Assembly (NCBI GenBank): GCA_001887945.1
Contig: LDOQ01000300.1
Location: 1-64,000, forward strand
Direction: 5' to 3'
Origin: Spraguea lophii
Taxonomy: Eukaryota; Microsporidia; Spragueidae
DNA: 64,000 nucleotides
The position numbers and the translations under genes were made by a program. The notes under the pieces are model-generated. The model saw only the letters and a list, made by a program, of their open reading frames with translations, searched no databases and was not told the DNA's origin. Positions 1-59,345 of this stretch are shown piece after piece (position 1 is the stretch's first letter; every line of letters starts with the position of its first letter).

Positions 1-120
1 GCATATCTGTAGTGAAACCAGTTAGTACAAGTTTAATGTCGCTCGAGGAACCGAAGGTCACAGACCATGGTAGGCCGCAACCGGCCAGGAAGCTTTGATA
101 AATAAAAGTTTCATTCGTAA
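1..120 (+). repeat. SINE-like repeat, 3' end (cut by window edge)
   Basis: This is the 3' quarter of the dispersed repeat seen complete at 26521-26995. Shared blocks are GAAACCAGTTAGTACAAG, GAGGAACCGAA, a GGCCGCAACCGGCCAGG-like block and the terminal GATAAATAAAAGTTT followed by an A run. It matches the intact copy closely, so it is fairly young. Its head lies outside the window. Confidence 0.8.
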
Positions 121-159: not shown

Positions 160-597
160 TAAATAACACTTTAATTATAGCCAAAGCATTCTTGTTGATT
201 ATAACCCATCGTCCTCTGAAATAACTGGTTTATTAAACCATGAGTATTATGTATCATCTTGCCCGATTGTCTATATGTATTAATTTTATCTTACTTTTGT
301 TCTTGGGCGTTAAGAATTATATATTTTTAATTACCATTTTATCAATATTAATGAATTTCTAGCATTCCTCTTAGCATAGCATTGCTAGAATCACTAATGA
401 ATATATGTGTTGCAACTATATCAATTAATCGTCGTTTCGATTTAATACTGAATTGTTTTACAAAACATAATCAAGTTATGCTATCGTATCTTCATACATA
501 TTTTTTTATTTTAAAAATTTTCTGGATGAAAAGATTTGAATCCAGTAAGCTTACAATTTGGTCATCCCCTCCCAACAACTTAGTCAAATAGAATTTA
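160..597 (-). repeat. SINE-like repeat, degenerate, near full length
   Basis: A minus-strand copy whose tRNA-like head lies at about 520-597, next to the CTGGATGA motif that marks the head in the intact copy. The 3' end lies near 165-240. Its B-box region is still recognisable (GATTTGAATCC on the plus strand). The body has drifted strongly toward A and T. The small open frame at 382-591 lies entirely inside it and is not taken as a gene. Confidence 0.65.
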
Positions 598-3784: not shown

Positions 3785-4120
3785 ATTATCAAAATGTTCC
3801 AGCTGATTATAACCCACAATGGTCCAAGACTGTTGATTTCCTAAAACGCGAGCAAGTTGTATAACCCGGTTTCATTATATATATGCATTAATCCCATCTT
3901 ATCTTATGCTTCAGAGCATTGTGGTTTTGTGTATGATTCACATCACCTCCTCTCTTCAATCCTTAATAAGATACCAATCTTCTTCTTCACATAATATTGG
4001 CTGAGCAAGTAATCAATACAAGAAGTACAGTTACACCAGCTAAACATTACTTTAATCACGTAATGGGTTGTTATGTAACATAATCATGTTACATTATCGA
4101 ACCCTCAACTGATCAATAAA
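3785..4120 (-). repeat. SINE-like repeat, head missing
   Basis: A minus-strand copy of the dispersed repeat. Matching blocks include TATGCATTAATCCCATCTTA, the ATATTGGCTGAGCAAGTAATC segment and ACTACTTTAATC-like sequence, in the same order as at 26600-26860. The tRNA-like head is absent, so the copy is 5' truncated or its head has decayed beyond recognition. It sits immediately before a decayed transposase. Confidence 0.7.
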
Positions 4121-8138: not shown

Positions 8139-8575
8139 CTATTTGATCCAGCGATCATAAACTGGTAACTAAACCTCAAGTATAATGCGTTCGTATTTTT
8201 CATTGAAGAAAATATTTTCTACCAAAAAAAAATCAAAAGTAGTTGATTGGTTGATATCTATACAATGTAACTTAGTTATATCTTGTATAATTAATCATAC
8301 GTTATGTTAAAATACTATTTAACACAAATGTATTTTCAATCCCGGTATTAATTTGTAAATCTAAATTACTATACAAAGAAAATTGTTAGAATTTCAAAAA
8401 GGTTGAAAGAGTGGTAATTAACCAATACGTAAAATCTTATCGTTTTAGAGCATAAGCGAATATGGGATTAAAACATACGCATGCAATACAATGAACTAAT
8501 ACAAGTTATTTGTGCTTTGAGGAAATCAACTCTTTTAAACCATATTGGCCATAATCAACCAAATCTGTTTAATAA
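8139..8575 (+). repeat. SINE-like repeat, degenerate, full length
   Basis: A plus-strand copy. The head (about 8139-8215) contains TTTGATCCAGCGATCAT in place of the A box, GGTAACTAAACCTCAAG, and a damaged B box (TGCGTTCGTAT). The body keeps the TAAAATACTATTTAACAC-like segment and the CAATCC...TTGATT pairing of blocks. The 3' part keeps GAGCATAAG and ACAAGTTATTTGTGCTTTGAGG. It ends about 140 bp before the next gene. Confidence 0.7.
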
Positions 8576-14617: not shown

Positions 14618-15844
14618 ATTTTACGAATATCGTTTTTATTTATATCAGATTTATTACTATATTTGGTAGATTTTCTGAATATAGTACTATCAAAAAATAG
14701 GTAAAAATATTACATATTTTTTTTTCTGTGCATTTAAAAGAGGAGAGTATTCTGCATCTTTTTTATATCAACATAAAAATATATGTATATTTCTAAATAT
14801 ATCAAAGAATTTAGATTATTTTTTTACATCTGCAAACCATAAATACATTGTAAAATAGATATTATAAATAATATTCTTCTTAATAAAATTACTATATTTA
14901 TATATTTTCTATTTTAGGTACTATCTTATATTTATCTTATCTTATATAAAATAGTTTTATATGTTTAATGTTTTAATAGGTTAAAATGCCGTGTATCTTA
15001 AGTTAATTATAAAATTTGAATTTTTTCGTATTAAATTTTTGGAAATAAATAAATATATTTCACAAAGAATGTTTCATCGTATAATAAACAATAGAGATTA
15101 AATTATGATTTCTAATGTTTTATTAAATATAGCGATATATATTACAAATTATCTTTTTTCGTTTTTATAATATCCTACTATGTAATATTATATAGAAGAT
15201 ATTGTAAAATATAAAAATTGGAATAAAAGAACACAGAAACACATGAAAATACATTATAAATCTAATAAAGTATTACCTACTACAATATTATCAAAAACTG
15301 TATAATATTATCACAAAAAAATATTGGTAATATGATATATATTTAAATATTAACTTGTACGTAATAAAGTGGAAAGGTATATAGATAAAGGGTGTTATTG
15401 ATTTGCGTAACTAATAAAACTATATCATCCCAAATTATACGGAAATATCTCGTTAATACGACTTTTATAATATTTATCAGGGATAAATTAAACAGTTTTA
15501 AGGAAATGAATATCACTGATTATAGTATATTGCATTATATTAAAGTGTTTAAAATGTAAGTAAATAATTATTAATGACGAAATCAAAGTTTAAAAATCTT
15601 TAAAAATAAATTATGCTTTTTAATAAAAACTTTTTTAAACATACTTAAAGCTCTCTAATTGGTTTTAAATATTAACGTTCTAATATTATGGTTTTTTTAA
15701 CGCACGTAATATATTTGTACAATTTATTTTTATATATATACATATTAAGTTGATCTTATATTATATTTCAGAATGTTAAATATTTGTATGATATTTTACT
15801 GTTACTACATAGACATTGCGTGATACAACACTTTATTTACATAA
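14618..15844. other. Gene-free spacer
   Basis: AT-rich and without a gene. The longest suggestive piece is an open stretch of about 46 codons at 15420-15559 with no start codon, bounded by stops. It may be a relic, but I cannot assign it. Confidence 0.35.
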
Positions 15845-15995
15845 CGTTGGCAAAATAAATAATCAATATAGAACTTAAATTACAATAGCTAATCAATACT
15901 TTGATCTAATACCGAGTTATTGTCCAAATAAAGCTAAGCTATATTATTAAATTCACACATTCGACTCTTCTCTCATGAAATAATGTATACTTTAT
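15845..15995 (-). repeat. SINE-like fragment (doubtful)
   Basis: Blocks resembling AGTAATCAATAC, ATTGCAACTACATCAG and CTACTTTAATCTA of the intact repeat appear in the right order on the minus strand, then a TATCGAAT-like remnant. The match is heavily eroded. Confidence 0.35.
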
Positions 15996-16189
15996 TGTTT
16001 TGAAAAATTTCCGATAATGATTTCAAATTTGTTAATGTTAAACTCGTCTATTATCTCCTAGTTATTGGCTGATGAAGTTTATCTAGCAGCCTCATAAAAA
16101 ACTATTAGAATAATAAATATTATTAATAAGAATAAGTTAATTATATGATTATTAATGAAGATTATACTTTAATTATATCTTGTATTATA

Positions 16190-17998
16190 ATTTTGAATGA
16201 ATATATACTTAGCTAATTTGATTGGAATTACTAAATTTACGTTATTTTGGTCAATACAATGTAAAAAATATTAGATTTAAATTTTATTAAAATATGAAGA
16301 TTTCAATAATACGTATCGGCTCAAATTTCTAATTTTTTTGGATATAAAAATAAAAAATGATAAAAAATGGATTTAATTATCCCAATCAAGGATGTAAGAT
16401 TTGATGGTAAGTTTGATAAATAATATTCGAAAGAAATAATGACAAATGTTTTCTATTCTTAGCAATATTGGAAAAGATGATATGTCGTGGTAGACATTAT
16501 AAATTTTTTTAAAAAATTGTTAACAAGTTTTTTTATTTAAGCGAAAATCAGCATTGGCAACAAAATCATTTGTGAGTACAACACAAAAGATATGATGTTT
16601 CTAAATCCATTTTTTCCTCCTGACTCATTGATAGTTTTATCTTGATAAATCATATCTTCTTGTTCTCTAATGTGATCTTGTAACTTTCTTGACGTATCTT
16701 TCGTCTGTGACTTGTCTGGATTTATCTTTGTATTCTGTCTAAATTGCTTTTTTGGTTCAATGAAATCTTGTCTGTTATGTATTTCAACTGGTTCGTTAAT
16801 CTCGCCGGATTTATTTGATCTACCAGAGTTTGTGTTAGCTTCTTTTCTAGGTTGGTTTTCTGATTTATCGACTTTTTGATTTGGATTTGAACTTTTAATA
16901 GAATTTGGTTCAGATTGTTCGCCGGGTCCATTGGAATCTTGTTTTTCAGGTGTTTTAGCCGGGTTACTAATCTCGTTGGGTGTACGTTCATTTAAATTTG
17001 TGTTAGCTTCTCGTCCAAGTTGGTCTTCTTGATTTTCCTGTAATTTATATCTAATTATATTCTTTAATAAACTCATTGAATCGGGAATCTGGTTATTTGT
17101 TATTTTACGAAGAAACTCCATATTATTTTCATCTTGCATAACTATATTTCCCGGTCCAATATTCATAATTGATATTTTCTTAAATTGGTTGTACGTTTTT
17201 GTTAGTTTTAAAGAATAATTTATATTCGCGATATATGATGAAGAGTAATTTCTCTCTTCTAATTTCAATTCATATCCATTAATTTTAACTGTTTGGTCTA
17301 TATCAATTTTGTTGTTACTGAAAGGATAAATTTTAACATTTTTAAAGAAAAAATCTATCATAAAACACTCTTCTGTTTTTACAATATCATTGTCTTCCAA
17401 AGCAAAACATGCATAATAATGTTTATCGCACAGAGAATTGATTTTAGTGTCTTGATAATTTTTTACGGTAACTTTGCAAACCATCCCTTGAATTAGCGAT
17501 AAAACATCTTCAGTATGTATAACAAAACCAATCAATTCTAAATCACATGGAAATTCGGTTTTTTTTGCAGAGAATCCTGGTTTATAACTCAAAATAAATT
17601 TAAGTTCTTTATTCATATTAACAATCTCTGGTTTTGAGGAAAAAAATCGTTTTTTGCTGACAATTATATTTGATTTGTCAAATTCCAAAGCGTTTACTTT
17701 TATATATCCATTCAACATCAACAAAATATTGAAAATTAAGTATTGTATTCCAATGATTTTCATTATAGAATTATAGATTATTGTCTTATATAAATAAATA
17801 AATAAAATGACATCGCAAAATCCTCAAAAATATGACATTTGATATTATTGACATTCTCCTTTTATAAAAGTAAAAATTAAATAAAATACATCATTATTGT
17901 ATAGTATTTGTCAATTTGCAATAAGTAAAACATGGAATTCATTAACTTTTAGGCTTTAAAACTTTTAAAAATTCATATTTAACAAAAATCAAAAATAT
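16190..17998. repeat. Segmental duplication, copy A
   Basis: 17000-17876 is nearly identical to 22790-23685, covering the N-terminal two thirds of the coding sequence and about 110 bp upstream. A second matching block lies at 17926-17998 (copy B 23815-23885, containing GGAATTCATTAACTTTTA). Downstream, 16260-16330 resembles 19880-19960 (TTTTATTAAAAT, then AATAATACGTATC against AATAATATGTATC). So the duplicated unit was larger than the gene, and copy B was later split by a transposon. Confidence 0.7.
16537..17763 (-). CDS. Exported repeat-containing protein, copy A
   Basis: 408 residues: signal peptide (about 1-25), a globular region (about 30-245) with paired cysteines (Cys78, Cys97, Cys110, Cys116/120, Cys133 region), then a hydrophilic region with two 56-residue repeats rich in Asn, Ser, Glu and Lys (units contain EANTN...TPNEIS...SNPNQKVDKSE). 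It ends in a hydrophobic tail with no residues after it (FVLYSQMILLPMLIFA), typical of a GPI-anchor signal. The likely location is the cell or spore surface. The globular part is almost identical to the gene at 21337-23559, showing recent duplication or gene conversion. One difference is a cluster of three base changes turning FFQK into FSSK near residue 43. No known family. No CCC start motif. Confidence 0.75.
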   Translation of the reverse strand: MKIIGIQYLIFNILLMLNGYIKVNALEFDKSNIIVSKKRFFSSKPEIVNMNKELKFILSYKPGFSAKKTEFPCDLELIGFVIHTEDVLSLIQGMVCKVTVKNYQDTKINSLCDKHYYACFALEDNDIVKTEECFMIDFFFKNVKIYPFSNNKIDIDQTVKINGYELKLEERNYSSSYIANINYSLKLTKTYNQFKKISIMNIGPGNIVMQDENNMEFLRKITNNQIPDSMSLLKNIIRYKLQENQEDQLGREANTNLNERTPNEISNPAKTPEKQDSNGPGEQSEPNSIKSSNPNQKVDKSENQPRKEANTNSGRSNKSGEINEPVEIHNRQDFIEPKKQFRQNTKINPDKSQTKDTSRKLQDHIREQEDMIYQDKTINESGGKNGFRNIISFVLYSQMILLPMLIFA

Positions 17999-20900: not shown

Positions 20901-21336
20901 ACAATTTTTGTTGTATATCGAAGAATTTTATATAAAGAAAGCTCAAAAAACCATTTTCATTAAAATCGTAAAAGATCTAAAATCAAGACAAATTTATTAA
21001 TATTTTCTTTAAGTTTATTTTAGTAAAGATTATAAACCTGATTTTAATTCATTGAAATTTTACAAACAAATTCATTGGTAGTAAAAAAGAAAATTTATCT
21101 TATTCTTAAAATTTCTTTTATTTAACTTATTCATTTGACTAATGATATTCATATGGAGATTAATTAAATACATATTTTACATATTAAATAACATTCGATT
21201 AATAACTACATATCTTATTTTCATTATAATTGGAATAAACATACTTATATTTTTATGGTATGTTTTATAGGATAAACAAATAAAATTTACTAAAGTTAAA
21301 TTAAAAGTTGAAAAAATTGCTAATAAGCGTCTTTAT
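20901..21336. other. Gene-free spacer
   Basis: AT-rich tail after the Merlin relic and before the 3' end of copy B. No recognisable feature. Confidence 0.35.
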
Positions 21337-23559
21337 TTAAGCGAAAATCAGCATTGGCAACAAAATCATTTGTGAGTACAACACAAAAGATATGATGTTT
21401 TTAAACCCATTTTTTTCTCCTGGCTCATTAATAGTTTTATCTTGATAAATCGTATTTTCTTGTTCTGAAGTTTGCTCTTTTAACTTTCTTGGTGTATCTT
21501 TCGTCTGTGACTTATCTGGATTTATCTTTATATTCTGTTTAAGTTGTTTTTCTGGTTCATTGAAATCTTGTTTTTTAGATATTTTATTTGATACATTAGC
21601 GTTATTGGTTGTCTGTGGATTTTCCTCGATTGGGTGTATACTTTGTACAGTTTGTTTTTCCGGTGCGGTATAATAGTTTTCTTCACTCGAACTTGAATTT
21701 TTAACAGTGTTTGGTTTAGATTGTTTCTTTGATTTACTCGAATCTTGAGGTTCTTGCGAGTTATTTGGTACATTAAGCTTTATAGTTTCCTGTAATTCAT
21801 CTGAGTCTCCGCTAGTTTTTTGTTCAACTTGTTTTTCTGATATACTAGAATATTTTTTTCCATTTGGATTTGAACTTATAACGGAGTTTTCATCGAGCTT
21901 GGCTTCGGAATGTTCTTTCGATTTATGAAAATTTTGAGATTTATTTGATCCGTTTAATATATTGGCATTTATTTTTTTCAATGGTTCGTCGGGATTTTTA
22001 ATTGCTTCTTGTTCAGATTGTCCTTTCGTTTCATTGAAATTTTGTTTTTTATATATATCGGCTGGATTATTAGATTTTGTGCGTGTATTTAATTTATCTG
22101 AGTTTGTATTAGCTTTTTGTTCAAGTTGTTCTTCTGATTTATTGACTTTTTGCTTTGGATCTGAACTTTCAATAGAATTTTCAACAGAACTTAATTCAGA
22201 ATGACCTTTCGATTTGTTTAAATCTTGACTTTGGTGTATTTCAGTTGGTTTGTTAGCTTCGTCGGATTTACTTAATTCCCCCGAGTTTACGTTAGCTTCT
22301 TTTCTAAGCTGGCTTTCTGATTTATCGACTTTTTCATTTGGATTTGAATTTTTAATAAAATTCAATTCAGATTGTTCGCTGGGACCACTGGAATCTTGTT
22401 TTTTAAACGTTTCAGCTGTTTTACTAATCTTATTGGGTGTATGTTCACCTGAGTTTGCGTTAGCTTCGTGTTCAAGTTGTACTTCTGATCTATTGACTTT
22501 TTGATTTGGATCTGAACTTTTAGCGGGATTTGGTTCAGATTGTTCGCTAGACCCATTGAGATATTGTGTTTTAAATGTCTCGGCCGGTCTATTAATCACG
22601 TTGGGTGTATGTTCATTTGAATTTGTGTTAGCTTCTTTTCTAGGTTGGTTTTCTGATTTATCGACTTTTTGATTTGGATTTGAACTTTTAATAGAATTTG
22701 GTTCAGATTGTTCGCCGGGTCCATTGGAATCTTGTTTTTCAGGTGTTTTAGCCGGGTTACTAATCTCGTTGGGTGTACGTTCATTTAAATTTGTGTTAGC
22801 TTCTCGTCCAAGTTGGTCTTCTTGATTTTCCTGTAATTTATATCTAATTATATTCTTTAATAAACTCATTGAATCGGGAATCTGGTTATTTGTTATTTTA
22901 CGAAGAAACTCCATATTATTTTCATCTTGCATAACTATATTTCCCGGTCCAATATTCATAATTGATATTTTCTTAAATTGGTTGTACGTTTTTGTTAGTT
23001 TTAAAGAATAATTTATATTCGCGATATATGATGAAGAGTAATTTCTCTCTTCTAATTTCAATTCATATCCATTAATTTTAACTGTTTGGTCTATATCAAT
23101 TTTGTTGTTACTGAAAGGATAAATTTTAACATTTTTAAAGAAAAAATCTATCATAAAACACTCTTCTGTTTTTACAATATCATTGTCTTCCAAAGCAAAA
23201 CATGCATAATAATGTTTATCGCACAGAGAATTGATTTTAGTGTCTTGATAATTTTTTACGGTAACTTTGCAAACCATCCCTTGAATTAGCGATAAAACAT
23301 CTTCAGTATGTATAACAAAACCAATCAATTCTAAATCACATGGAAATTCGGTTTTTTTTGCAGAGAATCCTGGTTTATAACTCAAAATAAATTTAAGTTC
23401 TTTATTCATATTAACAATCTCTGGTTTTTGGAAAAAAAATCGTTTTTTGCTGACAATTATATTTGATTTGTCCAATTCCAAAGCGTTTATTTTTATATAG
23501 TATCCATTCAACATCAACAAAATATTGAAAATTAAGTATTGTATTCCGATGATTTTCAT
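21337..23559 (-). CDS. Exported repeat-containing protein, copy B (expanded)
   Basis: 740 residues with the plan of copy A: signal peptide, globular N-terminal domain, repetitive hydrophilic centre, C-terminal GPI-like tail (FVLYSQMILLPMLIFA). It differs in the centre, which is about 330 residues longer. At least four units repeat at exactly 168 bp (the equivalent base in successive units is at 22793, 22625, 22457 and 22289), and a fifth follows 183 bp further, at 22106. More distant, eroded units run on to about 21550. Units carry EAN.NS, EHTPN, QD.NGP.EQSE and SNPN.KVDKSE. The last 100 residues again match copy A. This is how surface or invasion-linked proteins diversify by unequal exchange, but the function is unknown. 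The gene has an intact reading frame throughout. No CCC motif at the start. Confidence 0.75.
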   Translation of the reverse strand: MKIIGIQYLIFNILLMLNGYYIKINALELDKSNIIVSKKRFFFQKPEIVNMNKELKFILSYKPGFSAKKTEFPCDLELIGFVIHTEDVLSLIQGMVCKVTVKNYQDTKINSLCDKHYYACFALEDNDIVKTEECFMIDFFFKNVKIYPFSNNKIDIDQTVKINGYELKLEERNYSSSYIANINYSLKLTKTYNQFKKISIMNIGPGNIVMQDENNMEFLRKITNNQIPDSMSLLKNIIRYKLQENQEDQLGREANTNLNERTPNEISNPAKTPEKQDSNGPGEQSEPNSIKSSNPNQKVDKSENQPRKEANTNSNEHTPNVINRPAETFKTQYLNGSSEQSEPNPAKSSDPNQKVNRSEVQLEHEANANSGEHTPNKISKTAETFKKQDSSGPSEQSELNFIKNSNPNEKVDKSESQLRKEANVNSGELSKSDEANKPTEIHQSQDLNKSKGHSELSSVENSIESSDPKQKVNKSEEQLEQKANTNSDKLNTRTKSNNPADIYKKQNFNETKGQSEQEAIKNPDEPLKKINANILNGSNKSQNFHKSKEHSEAKLDENSVISSNPNGKKYSSISEKQVEQKTSGDSDELQETIKLNVPNNSQEPQDSSKSKKQSKPNTVKNSSSSEENYYTAPEKQTVQSIHPIEENPQTTNNANVSNKISKKQDFNEPEKQLKQNIKINPDKSQTKDTPRKLKEQTSEQENTIYQDKTINEPGEKNGFKNIISFVLYSQMILLPMLIFA
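22000..22815. repeat. Tandem 168-bp coding repeat
   Basis: Four units are spaced at exactly 168 bp, with a fifth 183 bp further on. Copy A keeps only two (equivalent bases at 17000 and 16832, also 168 bp apart). The units nearest the N-terminal domain are the most alike, and similarity falls toward the C-terminus. This points to recent duplication at that edge. Confidence 0.85.
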
Positions 23560-24144
23560 TATGGAATTATAGATTATTGTCTTATATAAATAAAAAAATA
23601 AAATGACATCGCAAAATCCTCAAAAATATGACATTTGATATTATTGACATTCTCCTTTTATAAAAGTAAAAATTAAATAAAATACATTTTATATAGAATA
23701 AAGTTTTAATAAAAAAACAACCGAATAAACATATTAATTTTTCAAGATGGCTAGGATTTAGTATTTTTCCAACACGTCTTTAGTGTATACGATCGATCAG
23801 TTGTGTAAGTAGAAGATGGAATTCATTAACTTTTAAACTTTAAAATTTTAAAAAATTCATATTTAACAAAAATCAAAAACGTCTTTTTTGTAAGCATGTC
23901 ATAAAAATTGTCAATAAAGAATTTTTTTAGCTTTTAAATTAAAAAATAAATAAAATGTTAATGTTCCGCAAATCATCTATATATACTTAATTCGCTATTT
24001 TTTTCGATTTGAGAAATTAAAAAAAGATGAAAAAATAGAGAATTCACGTTTCGACTAAATTTATTTATTTTAAAGTTAGAGTCTAAATAAAGTTTAATAT
24101 TCAAATAATTAAGATTGTAATTTTATTACAATAGTTTTATATAA
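23560..24144. other. Upstream region of copy B and spacer
   Basis: The first 125 bp repeat the upstream DNA of copy A almost exactly (GACATCGCAAAATCCTC and the TTGACATTCTCC block), so any promoter is shared by both copies. After about 130 bp without a match in copy A, a further matching block appears at 23815-23885. The remainder is AT-rich without genes. Confidence 0.55.
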
Positions 24145-24395
24145 TTAGTAATCCTGTCAGTATTATAGCAAAAAGGAGGTTATGAATTTATAAAAAAATA
24201 GGTGGGTTGGTGACGTACATCATACGCAAAATTATAACGCTCTAATGCATGAGATAAAATAAAATTGATGGTGTCTACAGCAAAACCAGTTAATACGTTT
24301 TAATGTGTTATAGGAACCAAAGATTATAAATTATAATAGACGGTAGCTATCAGAAAACCTCTATAAATAAAAATTTCATTAAAAAAATCTTAAAA
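24145..24395 (+). repeat. SINE-like repeat, 3' half
   Basis: A plus-strand 5'-truncated copy. TGACGTACATCATACGCAAAA, GCTCTAATGCATGAG, CAGCAAAACCAGTTAATACG and GGAACCAAAGATTA occur in the same order as in the intact copy, ending ATAAATAAAAATTTCATT. Confidence 0.75.
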
Positions 24396-25876: not shown

Positions 25877-26520
25877 AACCCCCAAAAGATAAAATCTTTA
25901 AAAAAGAAAAATCTTAAAGTATTTCCATTTTGATTCAAACATTATATTTAAAAATAAAAAATATTTAGTTAAAATTTTTTTATTCATATAAATATTATCT
26001 ATCGTGGTATTTATTATAAGTTACTCTTTAGTTAATATATAAGATATATTGTTTTTAAAATATATTTTAATAATCGTCTTAATTTAAAATATTATATGAA
26101 ATAAATTAATTAATATTTAATTTATATAATTATTGTAATGATAGGGATATTGCTGTATAAAGTATCATTACTTTGATTTATTAAATATTTATTTTAAAAG
26201 AATTTCTTCAAAAGGTTAATTAGGTTATTAGAATTTCTGAAATAAAAATAATCTATAAATTAAATATAAATTTTAAATAGATATATTTAGAAATTTAGTA
26301 ATTTTATGGTTAATCAAAATTTTTTATATTCTAGCGTATCATTGTTTAATATATATTTATTTTGATTGTAATTTTTGGTGAAATCCTAGAATGGGAATTT
26401 ATAAAAAAAAATATTTTTAGCAAAAAATAAAGCAATTAAAAATTCGAATTAAAAAACTTTAATTTCCTAACAAACCTTTAAATATTGCTTGATTGTTACT
26501 CTTTCTTTTTTGTTTATAAA
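25877..26520. other. Gene-free upstream spacer
   Basis: AT-rich. I see no gene or repeat before the SINE copy that starts at 26521. Confidence 0.4.
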
Positions 26521-26995
26521 ATTTTTATTTATCAAAGTTCCCTAGCCGGTTGCGGCCTTCCATGTCTGTGACTTTCGGTTCCTCAAGCGGATCTAAGCTT
26601 GTACTAACTGGTTTCGCTACAGATATGCATTAATCTCATCTTACCTTATGCTCCAGAATGTTAGGATTTTGCGTCTGGTGCACGTCGCCGTCTTCCTCCC
26701 AGTTTTTAAGGAATTCCGAACCTCTTTCGTTGCATAGTATTGGCCGAGTAACTAATCAATACAGGGATTGCAACTACATCAGTTAAACACTACTTTAATC
26801 TACTAGCGGGGCCGACATACAAGGCATAGCCAATGTTAAACTATCGAATCTTCATTCACTCAAGAACCTTTTTCTTCACTTCTGCCTTTTATTAATATTT
26901 TTATTTTTTTGAAAATTTTTCTGGATGAGGGATTCGAACCCGCCAGGCTTGAGGTTTGGTTACCACCCCATGACTACTGGGCCAAGCGGGACCTT
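26521..26995 (-). repeat. SINE-like repeat, best-preserved copy (tRNA-derived head)
   Basis: A 475-bp element, much richer in G and C than its surroundings. On the minus strand it begins GGTCCCGCTTGGCCCAGTAG, with an RNA polymerase III A box (26972-26984) and a perfect B box GGTTCGAATCC (26930-26940) at tRNA-like spacing. The ends of the head do not pair as an acceptor stem (GGTCCCG against CTCATCCAG), so it is not a working tRNA. A roughly 390-bp body follows that is unrelated to any tRNA or rRNA I recognise, ending GATAAATAAAAATTT. Head, body and AT-rich tail make this a tRNA-derived SINE by structure. No protein is encoded. At least eleven other copies occur in the window. Confidence 0.8.
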
Positions 26996-32817: not shown

Positions 32818-33075
32818 TCTTGAACAACGGCACTATTATTAGATTAAAATAGTATTTAACTGATGTAATTGCAATCCTTGTATTGATTTATGAATATAGA
32901 TTACCACGCTAAGAATGATAATTAAACAATACGCAAAACTTATAACGCTCTGGTGTATAAAGTAAGATGAGATTAATGTATATATGTAGCAAACCCAATT
33001 AATACAAATTTAAATGTGTCTTACAAACCAAAGGTCATAGCCATGGTAGACCAGAAAACTTTTATAAACTAAAAT
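32818..33075 (+). repeat. SINE-like repeat, head missing
   Basis: A plus-strand copy. TTAACTGATGTAATTGCAAT, GTATTGATTTA, ACGCTCTGGTGTATAAAG, TAAGATGAGATTAATG and GGTCATAGCCATGGTAGACC follow in order, ending at AATTAAAATATT-like tails. No tRNA-like head before 32818. Confidence 0.75.
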
Positions 33076-35118: not shown

Positions 35119-35565
35119 GCTAACTCATTTGGTCTAGTGGTCGTGGGTTGTGGATGTAACCCTAGGTCTAGCGAGTTCGAATCCCTTACATAGAAAAATT
35201 CTTTTAAAAAATAAAAAAAGTAGAAGAGAAAGGTTGTTGAGTAAGTTAGGGTTTGATAGCATTAATTATATAATATATATAGATATTAGATCAAAGTAGT
35301 ATTTAATTGGTGTAATTGCAATCCATATATTGATTTATAAATCTAGATTACATGCTAAGAAAGAGGTTAGAAATCTTTAAGAAGCTGAAATAATGGTAAT
35401 TAAATAATATGTAAAAATCTCAACACTCTGAAGTATAAGATAAAATAACCACATATCTGTAGCGAAACCAATTAATAAAAATTTTAATGTATTTTAAGAA
35501 TCAAGATTACAGATTACGATAAACCCCACACGACCAAGAATCTTAGATAAATAAAAGTTTCATTT
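35119..35565 (+). repeat. SINE-like repeat, full length
   Basis: A plus-strand copy with an intact promoter-like head: A box TTGGTCTAGTGG at 35129-35140 and B box GAGTTCGAATCC at 35173-35184. Then the spacer AAAAAGTAGAAGAGAAAGG, the body block AATTGGTGTAATTGCAATCC, and the 3' block ATCTGTAGCGAAACCAATTA, ending GATAAATAAAAGTTTCATT. The body has drifted toward A and T, but the head is well kept. Confidence 0.8.
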
Positions 35566-42167: not shown

Positions 42168-42835
42168 GAGAATATGCTTAATCTAATGATCACGGTATGG
42201 TAACTAAATTCCAATTATATTCGAACCACTTACCATAAAAGAGTTTTAAAATTTTTGTAAACAGATTTATTATATCCACAGAAGATAAAGAAATAGAATT
42301 GTTTTTACTTTAAGGCTTATTTTGTTTAATTATTCGTTCATCTAGTAAATATTCATACAATGACTAATTAAATATTACATATTAGATGATATTTGATTAG
42401 CGACTATTTTTCTTATTTCTTTTATTCTATCAAGACATCTTACCATAGTTTTGATAGCTTTCTACGGGGGTATTCTTATGTATTTTACAAAAATAAAAAA
42501 ATCAAAAAGAAAGGAAAAAAGATATTGGATGAGTAAGGATTCAATAACATAGCTTGATTGCGTTTTATACAAAGAATAACTACTAAATTAAAATAATTGC
42601 AATTCTATATTAATTTTTGAGTTGGTTAATACTATGTCAAGAAAGAAGTTAGACATCTTTAAGAAATCGATAGAGGGGAGTGATGTACATCATACTCAAA
42701 ATTTTAATTTTCTGGACATAATATAAGATGGAATTAATAAATATTTGTAATGATACCATTTAATGCGAGTTATTCATGTTTTAAAAAACAACAGTTTCAG
42801 AGATAAACCGCACAGGAATAAATTTATAATAATTA
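42168..42835 (+). repeat. SINE-like repeat, full length with inserted segment
   Basis: A plus-strand copy. Head at 42168-42245 with TCTAATGATCACGGTATGGTAACTAAA and a changed B box (TATATTCGAACC). The body resumes at about 42505 (GGATGAGTAAGGATTCAATA) and runs to about 42835, with blocks AATTGCAAT, GGGAGTGATGTACATCATAC and GAACCA-like relics. About 215 extra bases at 42285-42495 are absent from other copies. Confidence 0.65.
42285..42495. other. Segment inserted in a SINE copy
   Basis: About 210 bp that interrupt the SINE copy between head and body. It contains CATCTAGTAAATATTCATAC and a G-rich point CTACGGGGG near its end. No inverted ends or gene recognised. It could be a nested insertion, or could mark the join of two partial copies. 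Confidence 0.35.
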
Positions 42836-51147: not shown

Positions 51148-52233
51148 TTAATTGTTGTATCTGGGTCCTTCACTTGTGCTGTAATCTACTCTTATGGGTT
51201 TTTCATTAAAAATTTTTCCTTCTAAGCTTTCTTTGGCTGTGATGGCTTCATCAAGAGAATTAAAATAAACAAAGCAAAATCCTCGTGAATTTCCTGTTTC
51301 CCTGTCTTTTATGAGTCTTAAATCAGTGTATGCTATTTCAGAAACTTCTCTTTTTAGGAAATCTTCAATTTCTATTTGAGAGGCTGCGTATGGCAATCCA
51401 AATATTCCAACGACTTTGCTTGGTGGTGGGTTTGTTGGGACTGGTTTTTTATAGTGTCTTTGATCTTCTCTATTGTAATCTCTTCGTTTATAACCTCCTT
51501 TATCATCTACATCATCATATTTTCTTTTGTATCCACGTGAGTCATCTCTGTCTCTTCCGTATCCTCTATCGTCTCTATCACGTCTATATCCTCTGTCATC
51601 CCTATCTCTTCCATACCCACGGTCATCTCTTCTATCATCTCTATCACGTCCATATCCACGATCATCTCTGTCTCTTCCATATCCTCTGTCGTCTCTTCTA
51701 TCATCTCTATCACGCCCATACCCACGATCGTCTCTCCTAAAATCTCTTCTATCGTCACGATATCTTCCATATCCACGAGAATCTTCTCTATCATCTCTAT
51801 CTCTTCCATATCCACGGTCATCTCTTCTGTCGTCCCTATCTCTTTTATATCCACGATCGTCTCTTCTAAAATCTCTTCTATCATCTCTATCTCTTCCATA
51901 TCCACGATCATCTCTCCTATCATATTCTTTTCCATTTCTACTATCTTTCATTTCTGGAGAACCATCTTCTCTGTTTTCAATTTTATCCGGTTCAGGCAAT
52001 TCTTCACCCTCATATTGATTCATCCAACCATCTTTCTTTTCTTCTGCTACATTCTTTTCAGTATTACCATCATCATTTTTTTCTGTTGGTTCAGCCCAAT
52101 TCATATCATCACCAATATCCTTTCTTTCTTCAACTTTAGATTTTTCCTCAGCTTTAGGTTTCTCCTCAACTTTAGGTTTCTCTTCTACTTTAGATTCATT
52201 AGTTTTATCAACTGAAGCTTTACGTCTTGGCAT
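51148..52233 (-). CDS. RRM protein with RD/RG-rich repeat region
   Basis: 361 residues. N-terminus rich in Lys and Glu with EEKPK repeats (about 12-40), acidic region (about 40-95), then about 120 residues of a repeating DDRGYGRDRDDRRD motif (about 105-225), and one RRM at about 274-355 with RNP2 VGIFGL and RNP1 RGFCFVYF (317-324) followed by IRVDYS. The RRM with RGFCFVYFxxxxEAxxAxExLxG and ending IRVDYSTSE resembles Tra2-type splicing regulators. The RD repeats would act like an RS domain, with alternating charge in place of phosphoserine. A link to splicing is an inference. Introns are scarce in these organisms. CCC lies three bases before ATG. Confidence 0.8.
   Translation of the reverse strand: MPRRKASVDKTNESKVEEKPKVEEKPKAEEKSKVEERKDIGDDMNWAEPTEKNDDGNTEKNVAEEKKDGWMNQYEGEELPEPDKIENREDGSPEMKDSRNGKEYDRRDDRGYGRDRDDRRDFRRDDRGYKRDRDDRRDDRGYGRDRDDREDSRGYGRYRDDRRDFRRDDRGYGRDRDDRRDDRGYGRDRDDRGYGRDRDDRRDDRGYGRDRDDRGYRRDRDDRGYGRDRDDSRGYKRKYDDVDDKGGYKRRDYNREDQRHYKKPVPTNPPPSKVVGIFGLPYAASQIEIEDFLKREVSEIAYTDLRLIKDRETGNSRGFCFVYFNSLDEAITAKESLEGKIFNEKPIRVDYSTSEGPRYNN
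51525..51935. repeat. Coding minisatellite, GYGRDRDDR unit
   Basis: Repeats of about 27 to 51 bases (variants of GATCGTGGATATGGAAGA) fill the middle of the RRM gene. All three minus-strand frames and one plus-strand frame stay open across it, a side effect of the repeat. Such arrays change length by slippage. Confidence 0.8.
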
Positions 52234-56615: not shown

Positions 56616-57085
56616 AATCTCTTTGTTTAATGGTAGTTAGATGGTAACCGAATATTAAATCTAATTGGTTCAAATCACTTACCTATAATAGAATAATTTT
56701 CAAAAAAAAATAAAAAAGTAGAAGAAAAAAGATAATTGAACAGGTAAAGATTCAATAATGTAGTTTTATTTATACCTGGTATGATGGATTGTTATTAGTT
56801 TAAAATAATACTTAGCTGATGTAAGTATAATTCTTTTATTATTTAATAATTCACTCATTATTATATCACGAAGAAGATTAGGAATAATATTAAGGTCAGG
56901 CGGGAGTGATACCGTGTATCCTACACAAATATTAATATTTTGTACATAAAATAATATGAAATCAATACATATATTTAATGAAATCAATCAGTACAAGTTA
57001 TTTATATTTTAATGAATCAAATATATCACAACGTGATATATCACTGTTATGATAATTAAACTATTTATTTTTATTTCTATAAATC
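56616..57085 (+). repeat. SINE-like repeat, full length
   Basis: A plus-strand copy. Head with TTTGTTTAATGGTAGTTAGATGGTAACCGAAT and altered B box (TGGTTCAAATC), the AAAAAGTAGAAGAAAAAAG link, body block TTAGCTGATGTAA, then 3' block CAATCAGTACAAGTTATTTA. It ends about 225 bp before the SulP gene. Its GATGATATCAC region has acquired a small palindrome (AACGTGATATATCACTG). Confidence 0.7.
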
Positions 57086-59154: not shown

Positions 59155-59345
59155 TTATTATTAAGTTTCAGGGTTATGCCCCATACGCAAATTTCCAATC
59201 CTCAGGAGCATAATGTAAGATAAGATTAATACATATATATCAGATTGGTTGTATAAGTTATTGTGCTTTAAAAAACCAACGATCTCAAATTATGGTGAGA
59301 ATAATCAACTAAGATGTTATTTGAAAGGACAATTATTCATCTAGT
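59155..59345 (+). repeat. SINE-like repeat, 3' half
   Basis: A plus-strand copy without head. CCCCATACGCAAATTTCCAA, CTCAGGAGCATAATGTAAGA and GATTAATACATATATATCAG match the intact copy in order, then AAGTTATTGTGCTTTAAAAA. Confidence 0.7.

Follow-up and report, generated by a model that had tools for sequence, protein, structure and literature searches.

A SINE family with a tRNA-like head and a probable partner LINE in the genome of the microsporidian Spraguea lophii

Background

Microsporidia are a textbook case of genome reduction. The stretch of 64,000 bases of Spraguea lophii DNA analysed here, hereafter the window, contains a repeat that an earlier note had proposed, from the sequence itself, to be a SINE headed by a tRNA-like promoter. 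Is this repeat a SINE and, if so, which machinery copies it? In tRNA-derived SINEs with a LINE-like tail, a polymerase III head carrying A and B boxes is followed by an unrelated body and by the 3' end of a resident LINE. We conclude that the repeat is genuine and belongs to the SINEs. The preferred reading, a SINE that would be transcribed by RNA polymerase III from its tRNA-like head and copied by the machinery of a resident LINE, is given a probability of about 0.94.

In the main texts of three papers, LINEs are described for Anncaliia algerae and Edhazardia aedis (PMC4202319), for S. lophii (PMC3749934), and for Hamiltosporidium and Glugoides among others (PMC12449221). Since non-LTR retrotransposons exist in Microsporidia, a SINE could be served there.

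Copies of the repeat in the window

The assembly searched comprises 5.27 Mb in 73 contigs, and the window lies at the start of the contig labelled C15; the G+C content of the window is 23.5%. For the leucyl-tRNA synthetase encoded in the window, the closest named proteins among the 120 listed of 4412 matches are microsporidian; the best listed one carries no name, and identity does not exceed 49% over most of the length. A profile was built from 31 sequences, namely 30 copies from the genome search (the index copy among them) and one older copy. At E <= 0.01, it matched 12 copies in the window, the weakest at E 4.5e-6, whereas nothing was matched in either control, a first-order Markov sequence and the window read in reverse. 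The earlier note had placed copies at 12 positions; the same 12 were recovered by the profile, with some coordinates shifted. The copy said to start at 42168 begins at about 42501, the one given as 160 is seen at 348-585, and the index copy lies on the minus strand, spanning 26516-26992 with its head at 26992. Its features are as follows.

26516..26992, minus strand: index SINE copy, near full length (nhmmer E 2.6e-155, the copy itself being in the profile)
26992 and near 26516, minus strand: ends of the index copy, the 5' end and a decayed A-rich 3' end, respectively
26974..26984, minus strand: A box of the tRNA-like head, TGGCCCAGTAG (consensus 9-19; promoter matrix)
26930..26940, minus strand: B box of the tRNA-like head, GGTTCGAATCC (consensus 53-63; promoter matrix)
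26540..26587, minus strand: block common to the index SINE and the 3' end of the probable partner LINE (consensus 408-456, two predicted hairpins)
26520..26533, minus strand: conserved 3' end of the index copy, GATAAATAAAAATT (young consensus GATAAATAAAAGTTTCATTCGT, then poly(A))

The other 11 copies are listed below, with the part of the consensus that each one covers, identity and E value.

1..118, plus strand: 3' fragment of a young SINE, then poly(A) (consensus 367-484, 98%, E 3.9e-40)
348..585, minus strand: old SINE copy (consensus 15-288, 67%, E 6.7e-13)
3786..4117, minus strand: old SINE copy (consensus 129-467, 69%, E 5e-40)
8145..8524, plus strand: old SINE copy (consensus 13-416, 67%, E 5.8e-16)
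15831..16010, minus strand: old SINE fragment, the weakest match (consensus 75-270, 68%, E 4.5e-6)
24144..24380, plus strand: old SINE copy (consensus 238-481, 68%, E 6.9e-17)
32818..33072, plus strand: old SINE copy (consensus 171-471, 78%, E 9.8e-29)
35129..35564, plus strand: old near-full SINE copy (consensus 9-481, 73%, E 7.4e-45)
42501..42771, plus strand: old SINE copy (consensus 114-399, 72%, E 1.4e-16)
56631..56999, plus strand: old SINE copy (consensus 17-399, 67%, E 1.6e-19)
59177..59238, plus strand: old SINE fragment (consensus 314-372, 81%, E 2.4e-9)

Identity to the consensus was 67 to 81% for ten of the 12 copies, 90% for the index copy (45 mismatches over 472 positions, about 9.5%) and 98% for the fragment at 1-118, whose 5' part is cut away by the contig start, that is, the contig opens inside the repeat. 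Old and young copies together occupy 3,355 of the 64,000 bases, and the 12 copies overlap none of the 20 reading frames of at least 220 amino acids, which make up 47% of the window.

Among the coding features of the window, positions 16508-17891 and 21308-23687 hold neighbouring paralogous reading frames of 408 and 740 amino acids, perhaps secreted; the longer paralogue, of 740 amino acids, contains repeats at a 168-base spacing. A predicted protein at 51148-52233 carries many repeats of the RGYGRDRDDR kind, and its end resembles, by eye, an RNA-recognition motif.

Consensus, copy number and age of the family

Alignment of 30 copies with their flanks yielded a consensus of 484 bp with 46% G+C, starting 5' with GTCCCGCCTGGCCCAGTGG. 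It consists of a head with A and B boxes, a non-coding body, the conserved end ..GATAAATAAAAGTTTCATTCGT and poly(A). Full copies had been put at 440-475 bp in the earlier note; young full copies actually measure about 484 bp, a length within the 100-600 bp or so that characterise SINEs. Likewise, the 3' tail GATAAATAAAAAT(T)T described there turned out to be a decayed form of the conserved end and its poly(A). In young copies, GATAAATAAAAGTTTCATTCGT (the last CGT is absent in a few) is followed by poly(A), sometimes with T or a few other bases, and then, in most copies, by a duplication of the bases that precede the head. The repeat does not belong to any longer coding element, an eventuality also considered in the earlier note: on either side the copies differ in their flanks (a common flank was seen for one pair among 38 copies), the longest ATG-started frame is 26 amino acids and the longest stop-free frame 94.

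Genome-wide, 201 matches to the tail and 128 to the head were counted with at most 3 mismatches, compared with 0 for either pattern read backwards; positions are known for the first 100 places of each. The excess of tails over heads fits 5' truncation, and contigs that start inside a copy lose heads too.

Two age classes coexist. Twenty-nine of the 30 aligned copies differ by 0.2 to 2.7% from the consensus, which was made from these same copies, and the mean pairwise difference among the 29 is 2.3%; this closeness to the consensus argues for recent activity. The ten old window copies (67 to 81% identity) have a G+C content of 24 to 35%. When the 11 window copies below 95% identity were pooled, 610 changes from the consensus went from G/C to A/T and 131 from A/T to G/C. 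The presence of old, decayed copies beside young ones, together with this excess, indicates that activity has been long-lasting and that new copies are GC-rich at the start. GC-rich new copies decay towards the low G+C of the genome, and the old window copies are fossils of earlier rounds.

A promoter-like head

Promoter matrices were derived from 19 of the 21 distinct tRNA sequences found among 30 of the 57 tRNA genes of the genome. The SINE consensus scored 31.4 (A box at 9, B box at 53), within the range of the 21 tRNAs (21.6 to 32.6), and none of 5000 shuffles reached this score (best shuffle 21.8). The spacing between its boxes, 44, is the commonest among the genome's own tRNA genes. The A and B boxes attributed to the head in the earlier note are thus borne out, since the head scores like the organism's own tRNA genes. 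The same is true of its inability to form a tRNA: ARAGORN found 0 tRNA genes in the window, and Rfam searches listed a tRNA neither for the index copy (E <= 5) nor for a young copy (E <= 10). The nearest Rfam match in the young copy, with 9.7 bits and E 0.08, covered 13 bases of the T arm and was to tmRNA, which belongs to the same clan.

By alignment, the tRNA nearest to the head is tRNA-Arg(TCG), the best of 30 compared (57 being scored in the genome). The head alignment beat all 200 shuffles for 17 of the 30 tRNA genes and failed to do so for 13. Such alignments are no proof of tRNA descent; the boxes themselves drive much of them. The architecture of a tRNA-derived SINE that had been proposed is shown at the level of the promoter boxes, and no tRNA fold is recognised. 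'tRNA-derived' is a fair term for the promoter and an unproven one for the origin.

These observations bear on the idea that the repeat is an internally deleted LINE that owes nothing to a tRNA, its promoter boxes being a product of chance. Its 3' part is LINE-like (see below), no tRNA fold was recognised and 13 of the 30 tRNA genes did not lift the head above all shuffles, all of which would suit such an origin. Chance boxes are hard to reconcile with a promoter score that 0 of 5000 shuffles matched, with a box spacing equal to that of tRNAs and with the 17 tRNA genes for which the head, largely through its boxes, beat every shuffle. We consider this origin quite improbable and retain a SINE with a tRNA-like promoter.

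Transcription from this head might meet an obstacle: in 27 of the 30 copies, a run of four T is found near position 78, which could stop polymerase III early. Within 25 nucleotides downstream of 28 of the 30 tRNA genes there is a run of at least five T. As the organism's own tRNA genes mostly end with five T or more, read-through of the four-T run by polymerase III is plausible.

Marks of insertion

Distinct 3' ends were collected by the young tail followed by at least four A; there were 46 in the DNA analysed, of which 38 had enough upstream sequence for analysis. Target-site duplications scoring at least 6 were present in 27 of the 38 copies, compared with 21 of 740 mismatched flank pairs; at a score of at least 8, the counts were 20 of 38 and 0 of 740. 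The duplications that the earlier note had suggested looking for are therefore present in young copies, and it is for young copies that this result speaks, since copies were picked by the young tail sequence. The length was 12 to 16 bp in 25 of the 27 duplications, and 7 and 10 bp in the remaining two, of which the 7-base one may be a chance product. The sole old window copy among the 38 showed none, and the index copy has no convincing duplication. At the 27 sites, the base preceding the duplication was T in 63% and A in 7% of cases, a weak preference that recalls LINE endonucleases.

Truncation was observed as well. Five loci were chosen because no head showed near the tail among the tail matches listed: four were 5'-truncated (at 89, 89, 324 and 348) and one was an older full copy. 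Three of these four truncated loci (L092, L093 and L096) have duplications of 11 to 16 bp, and the fourth no convincing one. Three more truncated copies (at 112, 138 and 325) were present in the set tested for duplications; L057 has one, and the copy truncated at 112 belongs to the swapped pair described below. Overall, four of seven 5'-truncated copies carry duplications, and three have no convincing one.

Eleven of the 38 copies lacked a duplication scoring at least 6, and three of them could be explained: two inverted copies on contig C1, and L025. At L021 (G000:C1, about 142818-144261), two inverted SINE copies have swapped flanks and neither has a duplication of its own; the bases upstream of each copy (12 and 15 nucleotides) stand behind the other copy. 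The intervening DNA has apparently been turned round, either through recombination of the inverted copies or in the assembly. L025 (C1:213343-213813) and L082 (start of C52) have 37 bases of 5' flank in common, duplication included; the matching duplication end of L025 was found at L082, and the sequences behind the two 3' ends differ. Recombination between copies, duplication or an assembly error might each account for this. A fourth cross-match among the copies lacking a duplication, that of L054 with L034, may be due to chance.

The insertion marks allow two further explanations to be weighed. A family of conserved structural non-coding RNA genes, amplified by duplication and not mobile, would agree with the polymerase III promoter and with the folding of a young copy, which is more stable than that of shuffles (z -2.4, 2 of 100 as good). 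It does not agree with the target-site duplications and 5' truncations, with flanks that are unrelated, or with old copies at 67 to 81% identity, and no Rfam family reached its cut-off in the window; given the duplications and truncations, we judge this explanation already refuted, with a very small probability left to it. A non-autonomous DNA transposon (MITE) would likewise be a short element in many copies and devoid of a long reading frame. Here, the two ends differ (GTCCCGCC.. compared with ..CATTCGT and poly(A)), the duplications vary from 12 to 16 bp with no fixed size, and the truncated copies, which were picked by their 3' end, all keep that end. In our view, the end structure already refutes a MITE, the probability of which we hold to be next to nil.

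No clear preference for insertion near tRNA genes was found for SINE heads relative to 50 tRNA genes, in a test covering 45 of the 73 contigs and the first 100 of the 128 heads: two of the 50 genes were within 200 bases of a head (0.4 expected, P 0.07), four within 1 kb (1.9 expected, P 0.10) and eight within 5 kb (8.4 expected).

Contig ends within repeats

Six contigs carry the tail at a nearly equal distance from their start, and a repeat of chromosome ends was therefore considered; it was rejected, the assembly being broken by the repeat. Among 18 contig starts and two contig ends, most of them chosen for a match near the start, 14 starts and one end (that of C9) fall within a SINE, and they do so at a small number of recurring points. 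The 14 contigs are C15 (the window), C25, C54, C56, C58, C60, C22, C35, C36, C46, C47, C48, C3 and C19. By their coordinates, C11, C21, C61, C63 and C72 start inside a LINE. Contig starts at recurring points of SINE and LINE indicate that the assembly was broken by both repeats.

A probable partner LINE

The earlier note had predicted a partner LINE with a common 3' tail, and a probable one was found, which has a 49-base block and two predicted hairpins in common with the SINE, and a similar terminus. LINE 3' portions were located by a search with the C-terminal part of a related protein and were found at contig starts; the LINE 3' end that was read consists of 400 bases at C63:720-1119, behind a LINE 3' portion. 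Positions 408-456 of the SINE are identical at 44 of 49 bases (90%) to positions 21-69 of this LINE 3' end (L097), with E 2e-15. When 40 of 121 candidates were scored, at least eight further places were found where the block runs on into LINE-only sequence (the other end of C63, C8, C6, C21, C11 twice, C67 and C61). Six of the LINE-end matches stop at query base 204, the last A of a poly(A) run; SINE copies match query 15-70 only. Since the block continues into LINE-only sequence elsewhere, it is the end of the LINE and not an inserted SINE. The letters across the common block are known from one LINE copy, the other copies being known by coordinates and identity.

The same two hairpins are predicted for the common block in the SINE and LINE RNAs. 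The last 25 nucleotides of the two elements are also alike (3 of 10,000 single-base shuffles were as good), and about 100 nucleotides of the LINE 3' UTR are absent from the SINE. The G+C content is 43% in the LINE piece and 46% in the SINE, compared with 23.5% in the window. This GC-rich resident LINE is the probable partner of the SINE.

The genome was searched for reverse transcriptases, and nine matches were obtained: Ty3/Gypsy elements, telomerase in two pieces, LINE pieces, and one unassigned broken match on C5. None of the LINE copies found is complete. The longest LINE frame, of 458 amino acids, runs off its contig, C72; upstream of it, beyond a stop, lies a piece with a weak endonuclease match (Exo_endo_phos, E 7e-4, below the curated cut-off). 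The 458-residue frame had no Pfam match at E <= 0.001, and the RVT_1 piece was below cut-off; among solved structures, the frame matched human LINE-1 ORF2p (E 1.2e-9). Its relatives are proteins of non-LTR retrotransposons. The best of them, P0121 (31% identity), carries PF14529 and PF03372, and the best named ones are 'Transposon TX1' proteins of Smittium culicis (P0122, P0123, P0124 and P0129; 27 to 40% identity over 27 to 89% of the query), which are too distant for one family with the partner LINE.

Several retroelements were noted along the way. Contig G000:C63 (12,583 bp) carries, about 30 bases from either end, a LINE 3' portion that points inward. Behind a LINE-associated frame of L091 (C21), away from the contig end, a short TTAGG-like run, GGTTAGGTTAGGTTAGGG, is seen at about 1651-1670. 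Elements of the Ty3/Gypsy type have long open frames at L031 (C73) and L033 (C44), and a broken one is found at L032 (C48). The telomerase reverse transcriptase at L038 82-2916 (C2) contains long asparagine-rich inserts.

Could another reverse transcriptase copy a real SINE, be it telomerase, a Ty3/Gypsy enzyme or an unassembled LINE, with the 49-base block coincidental or captured? Telomerase and Ty3/Gypsy elements are present in the genome, and the longest LINE frame sits in a copy interrupted by a contig end; these points speak for such a source. A poly(A) tail, a truncated 5' end and a duplication of about 14 bp, all seen here, characterise insertion of the LINE type and not LTR elements; the common block, moreover, lies at the 3' end of the LINE, and the last 25 nucleotides are similar in LINE and SINE. 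We regard another enzyme as unlikely, and copying by the resident LINE remains the preferred reading.

Discussion

The life cycle of the SINE would be the following. Transcription by RNA polymerase III, a step that we infer, would begin at the tRNA-like head and continue across the body to the 3' end and poly(A). The 3' part of this RNA would offer two small predicted hairpins and a terminus in common with a LINE whose endonuclease is probably of the apurinic type. The endonuclease-reverse transcriptase of that LINE would bind the 3' part and, through target-primed reverse transcription, copy the RNA at a nicked target rich in T. The common 3' end is observed in the two elements, and so are the marks that such an insertion would leave: poly(A), a target-site duplication of about 14 bp and, in some copies, a truncated 5' end. 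Mobilisation would thus take place in trans, through the LINE.

How does this element compare with known ones? Like tRNA-derived SINEs, it has a head with A and B boxes, an unrelated body, a LINE-type 3' end, duplications, and both young and old copies. It differs from them in that no tRNA fold is recognised, in its poly(A) 3' end, in the internal gap of about 100 nucleotides in the common LINE tail, and in its host, a microsporidian with an assembly of 5.3 Mb. In fungi, the tRNA-related AfuSINE2 elements of Aspergillus fumigatus are 140-493 bp long, with duplications of 4-14 bp (PMC5063351). The likeness lies in the tRNA relationship, the unrelated region and the polymerase III promoter features (PMC5063351); the copy number reported there for Aspergillus is low (PMC5063351), compared with 201 tail matches here.

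SINEs of this kind are thus already known, fungi included; as far as was searched, the family is new for the phylum. The main texts of the three microsporidian papers, which describe LINEs, contain 0 words beginning with 'SINE' each (PMC4202319, PMC3749934 and PMC12449221). Among the open-access matches listed, no title or start of an abstract describes a microsporidian SINE. The exact 19-base pattern of the SINE tail was found 0 times in viral contigs.

A further reading, which we hold tentatively and think rather doubtful, is that the SINE and LINE form a complete pair, active now in a strongly reduced parasite genome, the LINE apparently recognising the hairpins, and that their high G+C reflects either entry from outside Microsporidia or continued selection on master copies. 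The outside source might, in this rather doubtful case, be the animal host or a gut fungus living beside the parasite. The old decayed copies in the window imply that any such entry was not only recent. An outside origin would make the element, as far as the literature was searched, the first demonstrated case of a SINE crossing into Microsporidia.

LINEs, LTR elements and DNA transposons have been described in Microsporidia, and within the open-access texts searched a SINE is new there. A young SINE with its probable partner LINE suggests that a small genome can harbour an element which is still parasitising that genome's own retrotransposon. Given the breakage of the assembly and the apparent flip between inverted copies, the SINE may reshape the genome. 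Its insertions with clean duplications would be markers for the history of populations and species.
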